A stretch of DNA of 23,109 bases. Source: a virus. Of the stretch, positions 16,427 to 22,508 are shown piece by piece. The DNA lies in the IMG/VR virus record IMGVR_UViG_3300042863_001740, positions 1 to 23,109 of that record; one strand, 5' to 3'. The position numbers were made by a program, and so were the translations under genes. Each line of letters begins with the position of its first letter. Position 1 is the stretch's first letter. The notes below the pieces were generated by a model. It searched no databases. It saw only the letters and a list, made by a program, of their open reading frames with translations, and had not been told where the DNA came from.

Positions 16427-17757
16427 TAGAAGGTACTTTTAGAATAATCGCTAAACTTCATAGTAGGGCCATTGAACCTAACCGGGAATGTACTTGTGTC
16501 ACCATCCCGAAACTTTGCAATATCAACTATGCAAAGGTCTTTCACATCATACGAATCATTATCAAATTCAACTGATTCGGTCATTTTATAATATTCAGGT
16601 CGCATCAAGAAAATAACCAGGTTAGCATCTTGTTCAATACTTCCCGATTCTCTTAAGTCTGACAATTGGGGCATCTTAGAATTTCTTGATTCAACTGCTC
16701 TTGATAATTGCGATAAGGCAATTATAGGAATATTTAGGTCTTTGGCAAGCACCTTTAAACCTCTGGAAATTTCAGCTATTTCACCCTCCCGATTTTGGCC
16801 TTTTTTATTCTGGCCAGACATCAATTGCAGGTAATCGACTACTAATAGTTTGATTCCAAATTTCTTTTTCCACATTAAAGCCTTAGAACGTAGCTTTCGG
16901 ATGTTTAGACCTGCTTCATCATTGATTTGCAATGGCCAGTTTCTAACCCTGTTTGCGGAGGTGTACAGACGTTCCCTATCGTAGTTGTCAAGTATGTTTC
17001 TTTTCAACTTAAAGGCAAAGACATCGGAGTCCTGACTAATTAACCTTTCAATCAATTGCTCTGAACTCATTTCAAGGCTAAACATACCGGTTGGTATACC
17101 TGCAATTGATAGGTTCCTAATTATTGACAAGACAAATGCCGTCTTGCCTTGCCCGGGCCTTGCTGCTAGGATAATTAAATCCGTATCTACTAAACCGCCG
17201 GTCTTTTCATCTACGATGTTGATTCCTGTTGAAAGACCTGCAAGTCCTGTCTTGTTGTGTTCTTCCCATTTCTGGCTTACATCATAAACTACTTTGGCAA
17301 TTGTCACTTCATCCTCGGTTATAACCTGCTTCATTAGGTCATCCAGTCCATCATGGATTTTTGCAACAATATCAAAAACATCATCAGTTTCGGAAAGTGA
17401 GCAGTTCAAAAGTTTTGCACCCATTTGGCCAATTTCCCTTTTCAAAAAGTTTTCAAGAAGAATTGATATGTGTACTTCGATGTGAGCAGCAGATGAAACC
17501 TTTTCTGAAAGCTGTGTAAGCTTCTTAGCACCTCCGATTGATTTATATTGCCCTGTGCTTTTGAGTTCGTGTGCGATGGTTATAAGGTCAATCTTTTTTG
17601 AATCTTTAATGAAATTTAGGAAAATGCCGGCCAGAATCCTATGGTTTTCTAATTCAAAAACATTTACGGATTGAATACGATTTGAAAATTCTATCTGGGC
17701 TTCTTTGTCGAGTAAGACTGAACCCAATACTATTTCTTCAATTATTTGCTTTTCCAT
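16426..17757 (-). CDS. dnaB: DnaB-type replicative DNA helicase
   Basis: A 443-residue hexameric 5'-3' helicase that unwinds the replication fork. Residues 1-140 are the N-terminal primase-interaction domain (DnaB_N, with GSVLLDKEAQ near the start). The RecA-like C-terminal domain has a linker at GLSTGINIVDEKTGGL, Walker A ARPGQGKT at 199-206, Walker B LLVVDYLQLMSG near 305, and ALSQLSRAVESR with SDLRESGSIEQDANLVIFLM in the DnaB motif 4 region. It starts within the last 20 nt of the initiator gene. Every expected motif is intact and length is normal. It would be loaded by the initiator at the iteron origin. Confidence 0.95.
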   Translation of the reverse strand: MEKQIIEEIVLGSVLLDKEAQIEFSNRIQSVNVFELENHRILAGIFLNFIKDSKKIDLITIAHELKSTGQYKSIGGAKKLTQLSEKVSSAAHIEVHISILLENFLKREIGQMGAKLLNCSLSETDDVFDIVAKIHDGLDDLMKQVITEDEVTIAKVVYDVSQKWEEHNKTGLAGLSTGINIVDEKTGGLVDTDLIILAARPGQGKTAFVLSIIRNLSIAGIPTGMFSLEMSSEQLIERLISQDSDVFAFKLKRNILDNYDRERLYTSANRVRNWPLQINDEAGLNIRKLRSKALMWKKKFGIKLLVVDYLQLMSGQNKKGQNREGEIAEISRGLKVLAKDLNIPIIALSQLSRAVESRNSKMPQLSDLRESGSIEQDANLVIFLMRPEYYKMTESVEFDNDSYDVKDLCIVDIAKFRDGDTSTFPVRFNGPTMKFSDYSKSTF

Positions 17758-18484
17758 CTTTAAAGGCTAATTTGATTGATGTATCTTTATTTTCTGATTT
17801 GTTAAATCCGGGCTTAAGATGTGTAATTGTGTTTTTAAGTTTTAGTTTCCAGTTTGTAATCTTTTTTCCATTTCCATCTTTCCAACCATCATCAATCCAA
17901 GTTTCAAATTTTGTTTTTACAGAAAATAATAAATTGGGAAATTCTTTTTCTAATTCTGTTTTATAGTAAGAAATAAATTCATCTTCAGTTGGGATGGTTT
18001 GTATATCAATCTTAATTTCTTTTATATTCTTATCTATATTACTATCTTGAGTACAAATTTTGGACTGTTCGAGTACAATTTTTGTACTATCACCGTCCAA
18101 TTTTTGTACTACTGGAGTACAATTTTTGGACTGTGGGTCCAATAATTCTCCTACCTTTTTTGATATCATTGAAACGTTATTTGTTTCAATATAAATACCG
18201 ATTTCTTCCTGACAAGAATCCAAGTCATGAATAAACTGGGTTAACCTTAACCCGATTTGGGTTCGTTCAATATAACCTTTTGTTTCCAAGGTTGCCAAAG
18301 CATTAAAAACAGTTCCTCTGGAAAGGTCTAGCCAATCAGCAATCTTTTCTTTTGATTTTATACATTGATACCCAAATTTTGGATTCTTGCTCATGTTTTT
18401 AATGTCGCAAAGAACCGCCATTTCATTAAGGCTTAATAGCAAAGCTTTCCTAACAATATGATTTGTAAGTGAAATAATTTCCAT
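17738..18484 (-). CDS. Replication initiator-like protein with internal origin
   Basis: A 248-residue protein. Residues 1-85 form a winged helix (KEKIADWLDLSRGTVFNALA then LETKGYIERTQIGLRLTQF), as in phage replication initiators and lambda O. Residues roughly 118-145 are a low-complexity linker encoded by the iteron repeats. The C-terminal part (WIDDGWKDGNGKKITNWKLK) is a module I associate with Bacteroidota phage replication proteins that sit next to DnaB. It probably binds the iterons within its own gene and loads DnaB, encoded immediately downstream. The gene is preceded by a kissing-loop RNA and terminator, which may control its expression. Function is inferred from domains and context. 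Confidence 0.75.
   Translation of the reverse strand: MEIISLTNHIVRKALLLSLNEMAVLCDIKNMSKNPKFGYQCIKSKEKIADWLDLSRGTVFNALATLETKGYIERTQIGLRLTQFIHDLDSCQEEIGIYIETNNVSMISKKVGELLDPQSKNCTPVVQKLDGDSTKIVLEQSKICTQDSNIDKNIKEIKIDIQTIPTEDEFISYYKTELEKEFPNLLFSVKTKFETWIDDGWKDGNGKKITNWKLKLKNTITHLKPGFNKSENKDTSIKLAFKDGKANN
18001..18050. other. AT-rich stretch next to iterons, candidate unwinding element
   Basis: These 50 bp are about 18 percent G+C, lower than the surroundings, and abut the first iteron. Lambda ori has the same order of iterons followed by an AT-rich segment inside its O gene. Unwinding function is inferred. Confidence 0.5.
18051..18131. repeat. Four 22-bp-spaced iterons, candidate replication origin
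   Basis: Four 15-bp copies of GT(A/C)CAA-N3-TTG(T/G)AC start at 18051, 18073, 18095 and 18117, exactly 22 bp apart, about two helical turns. Each copy is itself an inverted repeat; the second is perfect. 22 is not a multiple of 3, so the protein sequence does not repeat, which argues for selection on DNA. They lie inside the initiator gene. Confidence 0.8.
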
Positions 18485-18487
18485 TTT

Positions 18488-18599
18488 AAAAAAAATGCCT
18501 TTATGTGCCGTTCGGGGTCACAGTCCGTACTAGGCGCATAAAGGCAATAAATATTAAAAGATTTTCATGATGCTGTGACCCATCAACCTTTCGGCAATG
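18488..18599 (-). ncRNA. Kissing-loop leader RNA, copy A, ending in terminator before the initiator gene
   Basis: On the minus strand, hairpin 1 is TGATG/CATCA with loop GGTCACAG (18580-18573). Hairpin 2 is a terminator stem TGCCTTTATG/CATAAAGGCA (18546-18537 with 18505-18496) plus GCC/GGC, followed by eight T. Its apical hairpin, CGG/CCG, displays ACTGTGACC, whose CTGTGACC (18523-18516) is an exact 8-nt complement of loop 1. The ATG of the initiator is 4 nt past the T tract. Copies B and C share the layout but not the sequence. Confidence 0.75.
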
Positions 18600-18630
18600 C
18601 AAATATAAAAAATTAAAAATATAATGCAAT
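18600..18630 (-). promoter_or_regulatory. Promoter of kissing-loop RNA A
   Basis: On the minus strand ATTG (18630-18627), a 19-nt spacer and TATATTTG (18607-18600) fit the Bacteroidota consensus. It overlaps the stop of the upstream gene, and the first transcribed bases are CATTGC as in copy C. Confidence 0.6.
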
Positions 18631-19161
18631 CAACCAAAGTGCAAAAAAGCACAAAGTTGTTGCCCAAAGCATGAAGTTATTAAACCTTAACTTATCAACT
18701 AATCTTTCAGACTTTTCGTTTTTGGTCATTTCCATCAAGGCTATTTTATCCAACTTATCAAAATTGGACTTGTACTCATTGGCATCAGCAGTCAATCGTA
18801 ACTTGTCCAGTTCCAGTTCATCAATCCTTTCTTTGTTGGCCCTATTGGCCACATCTCGGAGGTTTTCCGATTTGGTTAGTTGTTCATTCAATTCATTGCA
18901 CCTGTGAAAGTACCTACGGCCATATTCATAACGAGTCTTATTTTCCCTTTCAAGTTCTTCAACCTTTGCAATCTCTCTTAGGATTTGACTGGAAGCATAA
19001 AAGACATCTCTAATCGGGCCATCAATGTGCAAATGGTAATTGATAGCCCAAATCTCCAGACCGTCATCTTTGACCTCTTTATGCGATAAGACTAACTTAC
19101 CCTTTCCTACTCCTATCCTTAAGCCAGCCTTTAACTCTAATGGCATATTTTTATTTTTCAT
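18613..19161 (-). CDS. Tail-anchored coiled-coil protein
   Basis: A 182-residue protein of unrecognised family. Residues 60-150 form a long coiled coil (EIAKVEELERENKTRYEYGR, ERIDELELDKLRLTADANEY), and the last 23 residues are a single membrane segment (FMLWATTLCFFALWLIALYF), so it is probably anchored by its C-terminus in the inner membrane. I prefer the ATG at 19161; the TTG at 19188 lies in the -7 promoter element. It could be a lysis or superinfection-exclusion protein, or part of a membrane-bound replication site. No motif separates these. Confidence 0.65.
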   Translation of the reverse strand: MKNKNMPLELKAGLRIGVGKGKLVLSHKEVKDDGLEIWAINYHLHIDGPIRDVFYASSQILREIAKVEELERENKTRYEYGRRYFHRCNELNEQLTKSENLRDVANRANKERIDELELDKLRLTADANEYKSNFDKLDKIALMEMTKNEKSERLVDKLRFNNFMLWATTLCFFALWLIALYF

Positions 19162-19185
19162 TTTTTTGTTGTTTAAAATTTCGGC

Positions 19186-19218
19186 CAAATATAGATTAAT
19201 ATTTTAAATTGTTGCAAA
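19186..19218 (-). promoter_or_regulatory. Promoter of the coiled-coil membrane protein gene
   Basis: On the minus strand TTTG (19218-19215), a 21-nt spacer and TATATTTG (19193-19186) match the Bacteroidota consensus fully, 24 nt upstream of the ATG at 19161. Confidence 0.6.
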
Positions 19219-19222
19219 TGTT

Positions 19223-19645
19223 TCAAGATAAATAATTTTCAACCTCATAAATAACCTCATCAAGTGACCAACTAACCAAAGTTTTATAACCTCGTTTTTC
19301 TGCATTTTCTAAAAACTTCAATTGATGTTCAGTTGGTTTATTATTCCCACATTTTAACTCAATAAAAAAACCTGCAAAACCTTTCCTAGCTTCAAATATC
19401 AAACAATCCGGCACTCCCTTTTTAACTCCTTTTTTAGATAGCAGAATGCCCTCTAAACTAAATGTAATTCCTTTTTTGGTTGTGTAGGACTTCGTCTTTC
19501 TTTCATTGGCCGGATGGGTCCACAAAAGCCCTCTAACATCCAGATACCTAGCGACTGCAATTTGAAAAGAATCTTCCGTTCCGATATAAGGCTGAAAAGT
19601 TGTTGATTTTTTATTCTTCAAAAATTGCATAGAGAATGAATACAT
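19223..19645 (-). CDS. VRR-NUC domain nuclease
   Basis: A 140-residue protein made of a single VRR-NUC domain of the PD-(D/E)XK nuclease superfamily, which cuts branched or structured DNA, often acting like a Holliday-junction resolvase in phages. The motifs are EDSFQIAVARYLDVRGLLWT (first helix with E), KKGVKKGVPDCLIF (catalytic Asp), GFFIELKCG (the ExK pair) and a final Gln-containing helix (TEHQLKFLENAEKRG). All core residues appear present. An internal ATG five codons in could also be the start. It is divergently transcribed from the HTH-like gene at 19701. Confidence 0.85.
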   Translation of the reverse strand: MYSFSMQFLKNKKSTTFQPYIGTEDSFQIAVARYLDVRGLLWTHPANERKTKSYTTKKGITFSLEGILLSKKGVKKGVPDCLIFEARKGFAGFFIELKCGNNKPTEHQLKFLENAEKRGYKTLVSWSLDEVIYEVENYLS

Positions 19646-19648
19646 TGT

Positions 19649-19680
19649 TTTGCAATATTAGAATTTGTTGCCTTACTTTG
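19649..19680 (+). promoter_or_regulatory. Promoter of the HTH-like gene, with flanking direct repeats
   Basis: TTTG (19649-19652), a 20-nt spacer and TTACTTTG (19673-19680; 7 of 8 to consensus) precede the ATG at 19701. TTTGCAATATTAGA (19649-19662) recurs as TTTGCAATTATAGA (19677-19690), 28 bp apart, a candidate operator pair that also covers the start of the divergent nuclease gene. Confidence 0.55.
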
Positions 19681-19700
19681 CAATTATAGATAATAAAATT

Positions 19701-19931
19701 ATGGCTGAAAAATGTATGCAAAGCCTCACTTTTGCTGAGTTTTCCCGAAAGTACGGAATTGCAAGATTTACCCTATCAAAGAAAAAAGACCTGTTCCAGA
19801 TTGACCCAGGCTTTGATGTTGAAAAGTTAATTGATAACCGATTCAATCAAGAACTGGCAAAACAAATCATGGCAACTTCTCAGGTTAGGCCCAATGCCAA
19901 AGGCAAACTAAAACCTAGAAAGAAGCTTTGA
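19701..19931 (+). CDS. Small basic HTH-like protein
   Basis: A 76-residue protein. The frame continues up to a TTG at 19665, but that start would lie in the promoter region, and ATG 19701 has an A-rich leader. Residues 10-30 (LTFAEFSRKYGIARFTLSKK) fit a helix-turn-helix, and the C-terminal tail is strongly basic (PNAKGKLKPRKKL). It may regulate the divergent nuclease gene through the paired repeats in between. It overlaps the next gene by 4 nt. Confidence 0.6.
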   Translation: MAEKCMQSLTFAEFSRKYGIARFTLSKKKDLFQIDPGFDVEKLIDNRFNQELAKQIMATSQVRPNAKGKLKPRKKL

Positions 19932-20191
19932 TTAATCGCCTGCCATTGTTTTTAACCGGATTTATTCAGGTCTATTTTGTAGCAGTAAATACTTACTTCC
20001 TAGCTAAAGAAATCTATCTGGGGGTGTTTATCGCTGCCTTTATGATTAGTTTGATTTGGTCCTTTAACGTCAAAAAGGTAGCCTTTGGGTCAATGACTGA
20101 CAAGGTTGTATATTCCTTTGGCGCGACCTCTGGGAGTGTCTTTGGGTTATGGTCTAGTAAGTTTTTGATTACTTTGTTGAATCAGTTTTGA
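19928..20191 (+). CDS. Small integral membrane protein, holin-like
   Basis: An 87-residue protein with two or three membrane segments (around 6-24, 29-47 and 63-83) and a short basic stretch between the second and third. Size and topology fit holins, but no family is recognised. The start is TTG at 19928, overlapping the preceding stop as TTGA. The only downstream ATG would remove the first membrane segment, so TTG is preferred. It ends at the -33 element of the next promoter. Confidence 0.55.
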   Translation: MINRLPLFLTGFIQVYFVAVNTYFLAKEIYLGVFIAAFMISLIWSFNVKKVAFGSMTDKVVYSFGATSGSVFGLWSSKFLITLLNQF

Positions 20192-20217
20192 TGAAATAAA
20201 ATAATTTCTTAAATTTG
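20187..20217 (+). promoter_or_regulatory. Promoter of kissing-loop RNA B
   Basis: TTTG (20187-20190), a 19-nt spacer and TAAATTTG (20210-20217) match the Bacteroidota consensus fully. The -33 element overlaps the stop codon of the membrane protein gene. Confidence 0.7.
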
Positions 20218-20312
20218 TATTGTTGCGGAGTAGAGGCCAAAACAAAGATATTGGTTTTTTAACCTTAAAGCCTGATTGGACAGTCCTCTACCTGTTTGAT
20301 TGGGCTTTTTAA
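20218..20312 (+). ncRNA. Kissing-loop leader RNA, copy B, before an HNH gene
   Basis: Hairpin 1 spans 20221-20244 (TGTT/AACA and GG/CC with two mismatches) and has the 8-nt loop AGTAGAGG (20229-20236). A small GGTT/AACC hairpin follows at 20253-20264. The terminator stem AAAGCC/GGCTTT (20267-20272 with 20303-20308) is followed by T. Its apical hairpin ACAG/CTGT shows loop TCCTCTAC (20284-20291), whose CCTCTAC complements GTAGAGG of loop 1. It ends 5 nt before the HNH start codon. Confidence 0.75.
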
Positions 20313-20317
20313 TTTTT

Positions 20318-20866
20318 ATGAAAGTTGAAAGTTTAGAAAATGAAATATGGAAAGAAGTACCAGGATTAAATGGGTATTATCTCGCCTCGAATTTTGGAAG
20401 GATTTATTCTATTGAAAGGGAATACAGGATTAAAATGGTAAATGGGAAATTTCAAGAAAAAAAATCAGTAGGTAGATTGTTAAATCAAATGATTACACCT
20501 GGTGGTTATTTAAGGATTCAAATTTCAATAGATGGATTTAAGCGAAAGTATTATTCTCATGTTTTAATAGCGAGAGCCTTTTTAAATCCTATTGAAGGTA
20601 AAGAAGTAGTTAATCATAAGGATTTCAATAAAACCAACAATAATATTGAGAATCTTGAATGGGTTAACAATAGAGAAAATTCAATACATTATTTTCAACA
20701 AAATACTAAAACAGGAAGGGCCGGAATCCATTATAGGGAAAATAGGTCAAGATATAATGGACTTATTTTACATAAAGGGAAAAGACACAATTGCGGATAT
20801 CATAAAACATTTGAGTTAGCCGAAATTGCCTATAATAATAAGTTAAAAGAACTTGGTCTATCTTAG
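20318..20866 (+). CDS. NUMOD4/HNH homing-type endonuclease
   Basis: A 182-residue free-standing HNH endonuclease. Residues 1-50 are a NUMOD4 DNA-binding motif (EIWKEVPGLNGYYLASNFGR), the HNH core is around VVNHKDFNKTNNNIENLEW with H, N and H, and the C-terminal third (AGIHYRENRSRYNGLILHKG) looks AP2-like. The start is ATG 20318; a TTG at 20300 lies inside the terminator hairpin. The gene is on the opposite strand to the head genes around it, overlapping the MuF-like gene end by 9 nt, as expected of an inserted selfish endonuclease that nicks sites in related phages. Confidence 0.9.
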   Translation: MKVESLENEIWKEVPGLNGYYLASNFGRIYSIEREYRIKMVNGKFQEKKSVGRLLNQMITPGGYLRIQISIDGFKRKYYSHVLIARAFLNPIEGKEVVNHKDFNKTNNNIENLEWVNNRENSIHYFQQNTKTGRAGIHYRENRSRYNGLILHKGKRHNCGYHKTFELAEIAYNNKLKELGLS

Positions 20867-21724
20867 TCCTGTAAGGCCTCGTTTTTCTGCTGCAGTATAT
20901 TGGGATTTCGTTACTGCGTAAAATTCATCAACACATCCAAAACCACCTGCGAGCGAAAAAATAGTTGTTTTAGTAGTTTGAGGAATTTTACCATTCCAAT
21001 TCTGGGAAGCCCAACTTTCAATTTCAGATTTTTTAAAAAACCTTCCCTTTCTGGAAATACACCATTGCCGACTTGATTCCCTTCTCGTTCCAACGTACGT
21101 ATAAAACTGAAGGTTCAAATCATCAGAAACTACTGCATTATATTCCCTTGAAAAAATCATTACTGAATCATTGGTAACCTGCTTGACATATCTTTCCAAG
21201 TATGCCCTTTGGTCTGGGGTTCCCTTGATAAACTCCCTGAGTACATTTTGAAGGTTGGTCCTGTTGGTATTGCCTGCAATGTTTTCCTTCAAGACCTGGG
21301 TAATGGCATTGTCAAAATTGGACCTTATCTCTGCTCCCAAAAGTAGGTCGGTAGTTGTCTGGATGTTGCTTTCAAGTATCTGTTTATAAAGTTCTTGTTT
21401 AGCAGAATAGCCATCAATCAATAATGAGTAATAAGAATCTGAAAGGTTTTTGATTTCCTTAAAACCTGTCAACACTTCTTTAACTGCTAATTGATAAGCT
21501 GAGTTTTCTACAATGGCATCAGCAATTTGCTTTTTGATAACCCTTAACTTCTGCAGGTTCTTAACCCGGTCCTTTGCATCAAAAGAAAATTCATTGGAAA
21601 TCTCAATTACCTGGTTGGCTAGGTCTTTAAAGATAACAGGAAGCTTGCCATCCATGTCGGTAATCAACTTGTCCTGTAAGTCTTGAATGGCTTTGATTAT
21701 GTCTGATTGTTCTTTGGATAGCAT
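20858..21724 (-). CDS. MuF-like minor head protein
   Basis: A 288-residue protein. The first 190 residues are helical and charged. The C-terminal 75 residues carry the MuF-type pattern: RESSRQWCISRKGRFFKKSE, then IESWASQNWNGKIP and SLAGGFGCVDEF, with Cys and Trp in the usual places. MuF proteins sit in the capsid near the portal and help DNA packaging or ejection. It is separated from its usual portal partner by over 14 kb and on the other strand. HNH genes lie on both sides, on the plus strand. The start is ATG 21724. The head role is based on the C-terminal pattern. Confidence 0.75.
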   Translation of the reverse strand: MLSKEQSDIIKAIQDLQDKLITDMDGKLPVIFKDLANQVIEISNEFSFDAKDRVKNLQKLRVIKKQIADAIVENSAYQLAVKEVLTGFKEIKNLSDSYYSLLIDGYSAKQELYKQILESNIQTTTDLLLGAEIRSNFDNAITQVLKENIAGNTNRTNLQNVLREFIKGTPDQRAYLERYVKQVTNDSVMIFSREYNAVVSDDLNLQFYTYVGTRRESSRQWCISRKGRFFKKSEIESWASQNWNGKIPQTTKTTIFSLAGGFGCVDEFYAVTKSQYTAAEKRGLTGLR

Positions 21725-21784
21725 AAGGCAAAATTAGCAACTTAAACAATCAATTTTTTCCTTAATTTTTTCCTTAATTTTTTT

Positions 21785-21792
21785 TATATTTG
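21785..21792 (+). promoter_or_regulatory. Promoter -7 element of kissing-loop RNA C
   Basis: TATATTTG matches the consensus exactly and is followed by CATTGC as in copy A. No TTTG occurs at the expected -33 position; instead a T-rich tract with two copies of TTTTTTCCTTAA precedes it. Confidence 0.5.
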
Positions 21793-21905
21793 CATTGCTT
21801 TTAAAGCTTCGGGGTGAAGACCGAAAAAAAGAAACTGGCAGAAATGCCACAACATAGCCTCGTAATGATTTAGCTTCACCTAAATTGTTTCGAGGCTTTT
21901 GTTTT
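21793..21905 (+). ncRNA. Kissing-loop leader RNA, copy C, before an HNH gene
   Basis: Hairpin 1 is TTCGG/CCGAA (21808-21812 with 21821-21825) with the 8-nt loop GGTGAAGA. A TGGCA/TGCCA hairpin with a GAAA tetraloop follows at 21836-21849. The terminator stem AGCCTCG/CGAGGCT (21856-21862 with 21891-21897) is followed by a T-rich tract. Its apical hairpin ATTTAG/CTAAAT presents CTTCAC(C) at 21874-21880, complementary to GGTGAAG of loop 1. The HNH ATG follows at 21906. Confidence 0.75.
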
Positions 21906-22508
21906 ATGCAAAATACAAAAATAGAAAATTTAAGTTGCTGGTATGATGGAGTATTTTATTCTGAAGAGTTTAGGGATATTCCTGATTTTGGAGGGTTTTA
22001 TCAAATATCTAATTTTGGTAGAGTTAAAAGTGTTTCAAGACTTGTAGGCAAAAAAATAAAACCAGATAGGTTGTTAAATTTAAGGATTAATGTTCATGGA
22101 TATTTACTAGTAACCATTAATCATGCAAAAAAGACATACGTATATTTAGTTCACAGGCTTGTTGCATCTGTTTTTATTGAAAATCCAGAAAACAAAAAAA
22201 CTGTAAACCATAAATTTGGAAATAAAACTGATAATAGGGCTTGGTTGATAGAATGGAATACTCATAAAGAAAATGTTCATCATTCTTTTAAGACAGGACT
22301 TAAAGTCAATGTTTCTGGGGCTAAAGCAAGTAGGTCAATTCCTATTTCTCAGTTTACAAAAAATGGTATTTGGATAAAATATTGGTGGGGTGCTAGGGAG
22401 TTTGAAATTAAAACAGGACTTTCAAGGTGTCTTATTTCCATGCATTTAAAAGGTAAATGCCAAACAGCACATGGATTTATATGGAAATACAAAAATGTAA
22501 AAGGCTAA
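21906..22508 (+). CDS. NUMOD4/HNH/NUMOD1 homing-type endonuclease
   Basis: A 200-residue free-standing HNH endonuclease. NUMOD4 lies at about residues 15-50 (EEFRDIPDFGGFYQISNFGR), and the HNH core at about 85-115 has TVNHKFGNKTDNRAWLIEW. A C-terminal NUMOD1 DNA-binding module follows (EFEIKTGLSRCLISMHLKGK then HGFIWKY). The start is ATG 21906 because the TTG at 21885 is inside the terminator. It lies antisense between two minus-strand phage genes and overlaps the next gene end by 4 nt. Little sequence is shared with the HNH gene at 20318 outside the HNH core, so they are not simple duplicates. Confidence 0.9.
   Translation: MQNTKIENLSCWYDGVFYSEEFRDIPDFGGFYQISNFGRVKSVSRLVGKKIKPDRLLNLRINVHGYLLVTINHAKKTYVYLVHRLVASVFIENPENKKTVNHKFGNKTDNRAWLIEWNTHKENVHHSFKTGLKVNVSGAKASRSIPISQFTKNGIWIKYWWGAREFEIKTGLSRCLISMHLKGKCQTAHGFIWKYKNVKG

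Follow-up and report, generated by a model that had tools for sequence, protein, structure and literature searches.

A family of leader RNAs with matched loop pairs before replication and homing-endonuclease genes of Bacteroidota phages

The virus record IMGVR_UViG_3300042863_001740 (23,109 bases; the whole of this stretch is called the window here) contains three short leaders, each of which ends in a terminator-like hairpin just before a gene. What do these leaders share, are they confined to this genome, and what might they do to the genes behind them? We found that the loop of the first hairpin in each leader is complementary to the apical loop of the terminator hairpin, and that the same arrangement, with other loop sequences, recurs in many phages. 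The element is widespread in Bacteroidota phages and is not a local family of three, as the first-pass annotation of this DNA had described it. Copies were seen mainly before replication operons and homing-endonuclease genes.

All three leaders could be read directly in the window: leader 1 at 18599-18488 on the minus strand, leader 2 at 20218-20312 on the plus strand and leader 3 at 21793-21905 on the plus strand. As had been claimed, they have one architecture, consisting of a Bacteroidota-type -7 box (TAnnTTTG), a 5' hairpin and a terminator-like hairpin that runs into a U-run, the start codon coming directly after. The loop pairs are GGTCACAG/CTGTGACC in leader 1 (8-9 base pairs, bp), GTAGAGG/CCTCTAC in leader 2 (7 bp) and GGTGAAG/CTTCACC in leader 3 (7 bp). 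The longest complementary run was 7-8 nucleotides (nt) within a copy and 2-3 nt across copies, which bears out the earlier statement that the loops match their own partners and are unrelated among copies. The features are as follows.

18600..18607, minus strand: -7 box TATATTTG of leader 1 (sequence and pattern match), with a TTG 19 nt upstream
18556..18592, minus strand: 5' hairpin of leader 1, loop GGTCACAG at 18573-18580 (folded with the loop held open, -7.0 kcal/mol)
18496..18546, minus strand: terminator hairpin of leader 1, apical loop ACTGTGACC (18516-18524), the complement of the first loop (-22.8 kcal/mol)
18488-18495, minus strand: U-run of leader 1
17738..18484, minus strand: gene behind leader 1, a DnaD-like/replication-initiation protein (PHROG 186, E 1.7e-10; PHROG 270, E 1.5e-6)
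20210..20217, plus strand: -7 box TAAATTTG of leader 2 (sequence), with a TTG 19 nt upstream
20220..20245, plus strand: 5' hairpin of leader 2, loop AGTAGAGG at 20229-20236 (-3.4 kcal/mol)
20267..20308, plus strand: terminator of leader 2, apical loop TCCTCTAC at 20284-20291, T-rich run to 20317 (-19.0 kcal/mol)
20318..20866, plus strand: gene behind leader 2, a homing endonuclease with NUMOD4 and HNH_3 (Pfam PF07463, PF13392)
21785..21792, plus strand: -7 box TATATTTG of leader 3 (sequence and pattern match)
21808..21825, plus strand: 5' hairpin of leader 3, TTCGG-GGTGAAGA-CCGAA, loop at 21813-21820 (-5.5 kcal/mol)
21836..21849, plus strand: optional middle hairpin TGGCAGAAATGCCA of leader 3 (sequence)
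21856..21897, plus strand: terminator of leader 3, apical loop CTTCACC at 21874-21880, T-run to 21905 (-20.8 kcal/mol)
21906..22508, plus strand: gene behind leader 3, a NUMOD4 HNH-type homing endonuclease (Pfam PF07463, PHROG 59)

Leader 3, unlike leaders 1 and 2, has no TTG 19 nt upstream of its -7 box. The distance from the terminator stem to the ATG is 11, 9 and 8 nt for leaders 1, 2 and 3 (ATG at 18484 minus, 20318 plus and 21906 plus). A mechanical scan of the window for a promoter, a 5' hairpin, a complementary terminator loop and a U-run, with the stem rule loosened to admit leader 1, whose inner stem is interrupted, returned exactly these three leaders. The same scanner gave no promoter-bearing match in 20 dinucleotide shuffles of the window.

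Further loci were obtained through homology to the downstream genes and through promoter patterns. A first anchored scan (score at least 55) yielded 19 reverse-complement matches, against 2, 0 and 0 in the identity, reverse and complement controls. With a looser fold scan (loop-loop match of at least 7, no length or ATG limits) there were 29-32 reverse-complement matches against 10-21 identity and 8-12 reverse matches; because many of these control matches fell in coding DNA, strict limits were added. The strict fold-based scan of 2.48 megabases then gave 21 reverse-complement matches and one match in each of the identity, reverse and complement controls, two of these three coinciding with genuine copies. 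A search for further copies with compensatory changes had been named beforehand as a possible refutation, and it turned up dozens; a hand tally puts the distinct copies outside the window, with different loops, at an estimated 60 or so. Cultured phages with copies include the Flavobacterium phages 11b, tooticki (two copies), elemoA, FCV-1 and FCL-2, as well as Polaribacter P12002L, Olleya Harreka_1, Cellulophaga phi10:1 and Bacteroides B40-8.

The two loops of a copy change together. Across 33 curated members we counted 28 different kiss sequences, each paired to its own partner, which upholds the covariation first noticed in the window. Among the 21 strict members, pairing of a loop, approximated as a free duplex, gave -9.6 kcal/mol with its own partner and -2.0 kcal/mol with the partners of others (p 4e-14); these members were selected for matching loops, and the comparison therefore shows specificity, not discovery. 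Three cases are cleaner, one of them the marine subfamily described below. L307 and L316 differ by an exchange of the two loops on a common backbone (CTGCAT/ATGCAG versus ATGCAG/CTGCAT). Leader 2 and L013 are alike over most of the leader and carry GTAGAGG/CCTCTAC and GTAGTGG/CCACTAC, respectively. Between leader 1 and L003, identity is 88% in the upstream DNA and 93% in the gene, and only 47% in the leader body. The family is defined here by a first loop that complements the apical loop of the terminator and by compensatory changes across copies, and both are seen. These comparisons, with that of the marine subfamily, show loops whose letters are free but whose match is kept. Inverted-repeat DNA operators were ruled out, since the two halves are each placed in a hairpin loop of their own, at a spacing that ranges from 44 to 63 nt.

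We also took a census of loci that were picked without reference to the RNA: 80 viral loci chosen by similarity to the DUF6291 replication protein, 78 of which had enough upstream sequence to be scored over 1.5 kilobases. A leader was found in 20 of the 78 (16 unique), compared with 0, 0 and 0 in three matched controls, and 16 of these 20 lay 10-32 nt before the gene. Relaxing the promoter added seven copies, two of them (L319 and L321) doubtful, again against 0, 0 and 0 in the controls. L282, L283 and L297 have a variant ahead of their DUF6291 gene, where a 5' segment with no evident hairpin pairs over 8-10 nt with the terminator loop (GCTATCAAGG/CCTTGATAGC; CTCTCACA/TGTGAGAG).

When 85,000 prokaryote genomes were scanned with a pattern of the promoter plus an RGTNNNNR hairpin, none of the 9 matches was a leader, and among the DUF6291 loci of Bacteroidia genomes only 1 of 8 had one. 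We therefore regard the leader as mainly a phage feature. Mycobacterium phage Dori (JN698995), which is not a Bacteroidota phage, has no copy. The host of the window phage is probably a member of the Bacteroidota, an assignment that rests on the promoters and the relatives. The claim that no named RNA has this plan held: Rfam 15 gave no match in the window at the gathering threshold, and seven loci (six with copies and the lookalike L239, described below) had none at E<=1. No published description of the plan was found in a literature of partial coverage, with subscription papers mostly outside it. The leaders appear to be an undescribed RNA family.

From the predicted start, the leader RNA is about 93 nt long (75-114), and the 5' hairpin begins approximately at the expected start of transcription. 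The (C/T)ATTG start that had been proposed for the transcripts is not general in the family; its position had been guessed from the promoter. Loops of 8 and 8 nt are the most frequent, and loop 1 often has the form RGTNNNNG. This weak preference apart, no sequence outside the loops is conserved family-wide. Some copies have an optional middle hairpin that is A/T-rich or small. The terminator stem has a median of -18 kcal/mol across the curated members, the U-run and the promoter features having belonged to the search criteria. The stem ends a median of 8 nt before the ATG in these members; at least 200 nt separate stem and gene in some copies.

The copies stand at the head of replication operons or before HNH and GIY-YIG homing endonucleases. 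Replication initiators follow the leader in FCL-2, P12002L and the window (17738-18484), and DUF6291 operons follow it, directly or past one or two small genes, in 11b, tooticki, Harreka, elemoA, L005 and L237. The leader of L123 precedes a GIY-YIG gene and that of B40-8 precedes pRha. In L185 the gene is, by our own reading, for a RecT-like protein (no Pfam match).

The marine subfamily (L071 and relatives) allowed a closer comparison, in an alignment of 13 sequences, 10 of them distinct, with three rows out of register in the automatic alignment. Five of the eight kiss pairs were changed on both sides, and no other helix in the subfamily was. The loop positions differed at 0.30-0.35 per site (0.33), much like the four-fold sites in the terminase gene nearby (0.35). 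The backbone differed at 0.03 per site (97% conserved) and was ten-fold more conserved than the loops. Positive selection on the loops was ruled out, as their divergence (0.33) is about that of the four-fold sites (0.35) and lower in most pairs. In L071, L064, L255 and relatives the leader is followed by a conserved non-coding stretch of ~480 nt with further hairpins, and in several of them the ATG past the U-run opens about 10 codons (MFSFSHNKRG). L264 (4672-4798) carries loops 1 and 2 from two different subfamily types and is possibly a recombinant or an assembly chimera.

What might such a leader do? The reading that we favour, tentatively, is an attenuator stabilised by the kiss, which would hold the downstream gene low. 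Transcription would start a few nt past the TAnnTTTG promoter, and the first part of the RNA to be made would be the 5' hairpin presenting its loop of 7-8 nt. Then, usually past a short A/T-rich linker, the intrinsic terminator would appear with its exactly complementary apical loop and the two loops would kiss; the start codon of the gene usually lies no more than about 10-20 nt further on. The kiss would clamp the terminator shut, and most transcripts would end as a ~90-nt RNA with both ends locked. In read-through mRNA, a stable structure would lie inside the ribosome landing site and block the start codon. The replication initiator or operon, the homing endonuclease or the Rha regulator may thus be kept low or delayed until the lock opens.

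It is the apical loop of the terminator, not its stem, that the first loop complements, and the kiss is therefore compatible with the terminator. When the 5' arm of the terminator was searched for antiterminator pairing, we obtained -6.1 kcal/mol with its own upstream leader and -6.8 kcal/mol with those of others (p 0.86). The earlier list of small RNA, attenuator or put-like leader can be narrowed on three grounds: the complementarity stays in the apical loop, no antiterminator is detectable, and the family lacks the shared sequence that a put-type element would need beyond the loops. This favours, but does not prove, an attenuator, which may release a small RNA as well.

Several points weigh against this attenuator. 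If the loops were to kiss ahead of the synthesis of the 3' arm, this might slow the terminator instead of helping it (kinetic interference). The quality of the terminators was partly selected by the search. No recognisable copy was seen in 51 of the 78 DUF6291 loci even under relaxed criteria. The two loops of L264 do not match. L071 and its relatives lack a sizeable open reading frame for about 480 nt, and tight coupling to a gene is not universal.

The median of 8 nt between stem and ATG also suits a translational control, in which the kiss-locked hairpin would overlap the footprint of a ribosome at the start codon, repressing translation until opened, termination being secondary. Bacteroidota seldom use Shine-Dalgarno pairing. 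There is a precedent in T4-type homing endonucleases of phages, as the hairpins of I-TevI, segB and mobE sequester the Shine-Dalgarno sequence and are bypassed by a late promoter (PMC2988022). The phage leaders resemble these hairpins in placing structured RNA at the start codon of a phage homing endonuclease; they differ in that the leader's own promoter makes the structure, with a U-run and a kiss. However, a U-run suited to termination is present in every copy used and is not needed for translational control, and the copies with at least 200 nt between stem and gene do not fit it. We consider this reading unlikely.

Each copy has its own promoter and terminator, and the terminated ~90-nt RNA might itself be the product, a small RNA of the phage that the kiss would make resistant to exonucleases and that would act elsewhere, the gene being expressed by leaky read-through. 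The marine subfamily, with its 97% conserved backbone ahead of a long non-coding stretch whose only frame is, in several, the 10-codon one, would agree with this. However, the loop identity, which is the natural seed for a target, drifts about as fast as four-fold sites (0.33 vs 0.35) and differs among nearly all copies, and a start codon at a median of 8 nt past the stem is hard to square with an independent RNA. A small RNA as the main product is thus quite unlikely.

HK022 put and EAR-type antitermination leaders are short structured RNAs with which phage or operon transcripts begin, and the kissing leaders are likewise short structured RNAs at a transcript 5' end. By analogy with put, the kissing complex might contact RNA polymerase and carry it past its own and later terminators, and a compact two-hairpin structure encoded at the 5' end of replication operons would fit this. 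However, what the kissing leaders conserve is the loop-loop pairing and not, the weak loop preference apart, a family-wide sequence, and the element itself closes with a terminator. Such processive antitermination seems improbable.

The least probable reading is that the loops act in trans, forming dimers or rings as in phi29 pRNA, or letting the terminated leader feed back on nascent ones, and that expression would in this way sense copy number, in the manner of plasmid replication control: the loops are mutually complementary, orthogonal among copies of the same genome (cross-match 2-3 nt) and sited at replication initiators, but intramolecular partners only ~45-60 nt apart should win, and loop identity shows no excess divergence over neutral sites. 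In phi29 pRNA and in ColE1 RNAI/RNAII, short complementary loops kiss between molecules, and their sequence changes while pairing is kept. The phage leaders share this retained pairing of varying loops; their partners, in contrast, lie within one leader.

For the kiss-stabilised attenuator, the nearest comparison is with the rep mRNA attenuators of pT181-type plasmids, which kiss a separate antisense RNA and whose 5' hairpin holds an antiterminator (PMC4878617). The phage leaders are predicted to be similar in having a 5' hairpin with a kissing loop and, ahead of a replication initiator gene, an intrinsic terminator (window 17738-18484, FCL-2, P12002L). They differ in having both loops in one RNA, with the terminator loop as the partner, and no antiterminator that would sequester the terminator's 5' arm is detectable in them. 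By the cited descriptions, neither the pT181 attenuators nor the T4-type hairpins use a kiss within a single leader that has the terminator loop as its target.

A broader proposal, which we regard as doubtful, is a new class of RNA control, in which the leader's own 5' hairpin sets the action of the terminator through a freely lettered but matched kiss, and which phages across the Bacteroidota would use to govern replication initiation and homing endonucleases in general. In its strongest form, the terminated leader would kiss nascent leaders in trans and sense genome copy number; if true, this would be a viral counterpart of plasmid copy control. The element stands at the gene by which the phage commits itself to replication, in a poorly understood phage group, and offers a system where the action of a loop-loop contact on an intrinsic terminator can be tested directly. 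The natural orthogonal loop variants are ready for reporter tests, and the leader can serve as a marker when Bacteroidota phage genomes are searched for replication operons and homing endonucleases.

A lookalike leader was seen at L238 (7282-7316, minus), L243 (6332-6366, plus) and L239 (6184-6217, minus). It shares the promoter and the GGAGT..CC hairpin, with palindromic 8-nt loops (GTAGCTAC, GTCATGAC). In L238 and L243 the loop of a second hairpin, GTCTATC, complements GATAGAC, which occurs twice just before the ATG. These lookalikes are possibly a sister RNA family able to dimerise.

Elsewhere in the window, a VRR-NUC/Holliday-junction-resolvase-like nuclease (19223-19645, minus) adjoins the replication genes, and positions 639-1829 encode a protein with repeated NQFG-like units (GNDVNQFGTGAGTSNT...).

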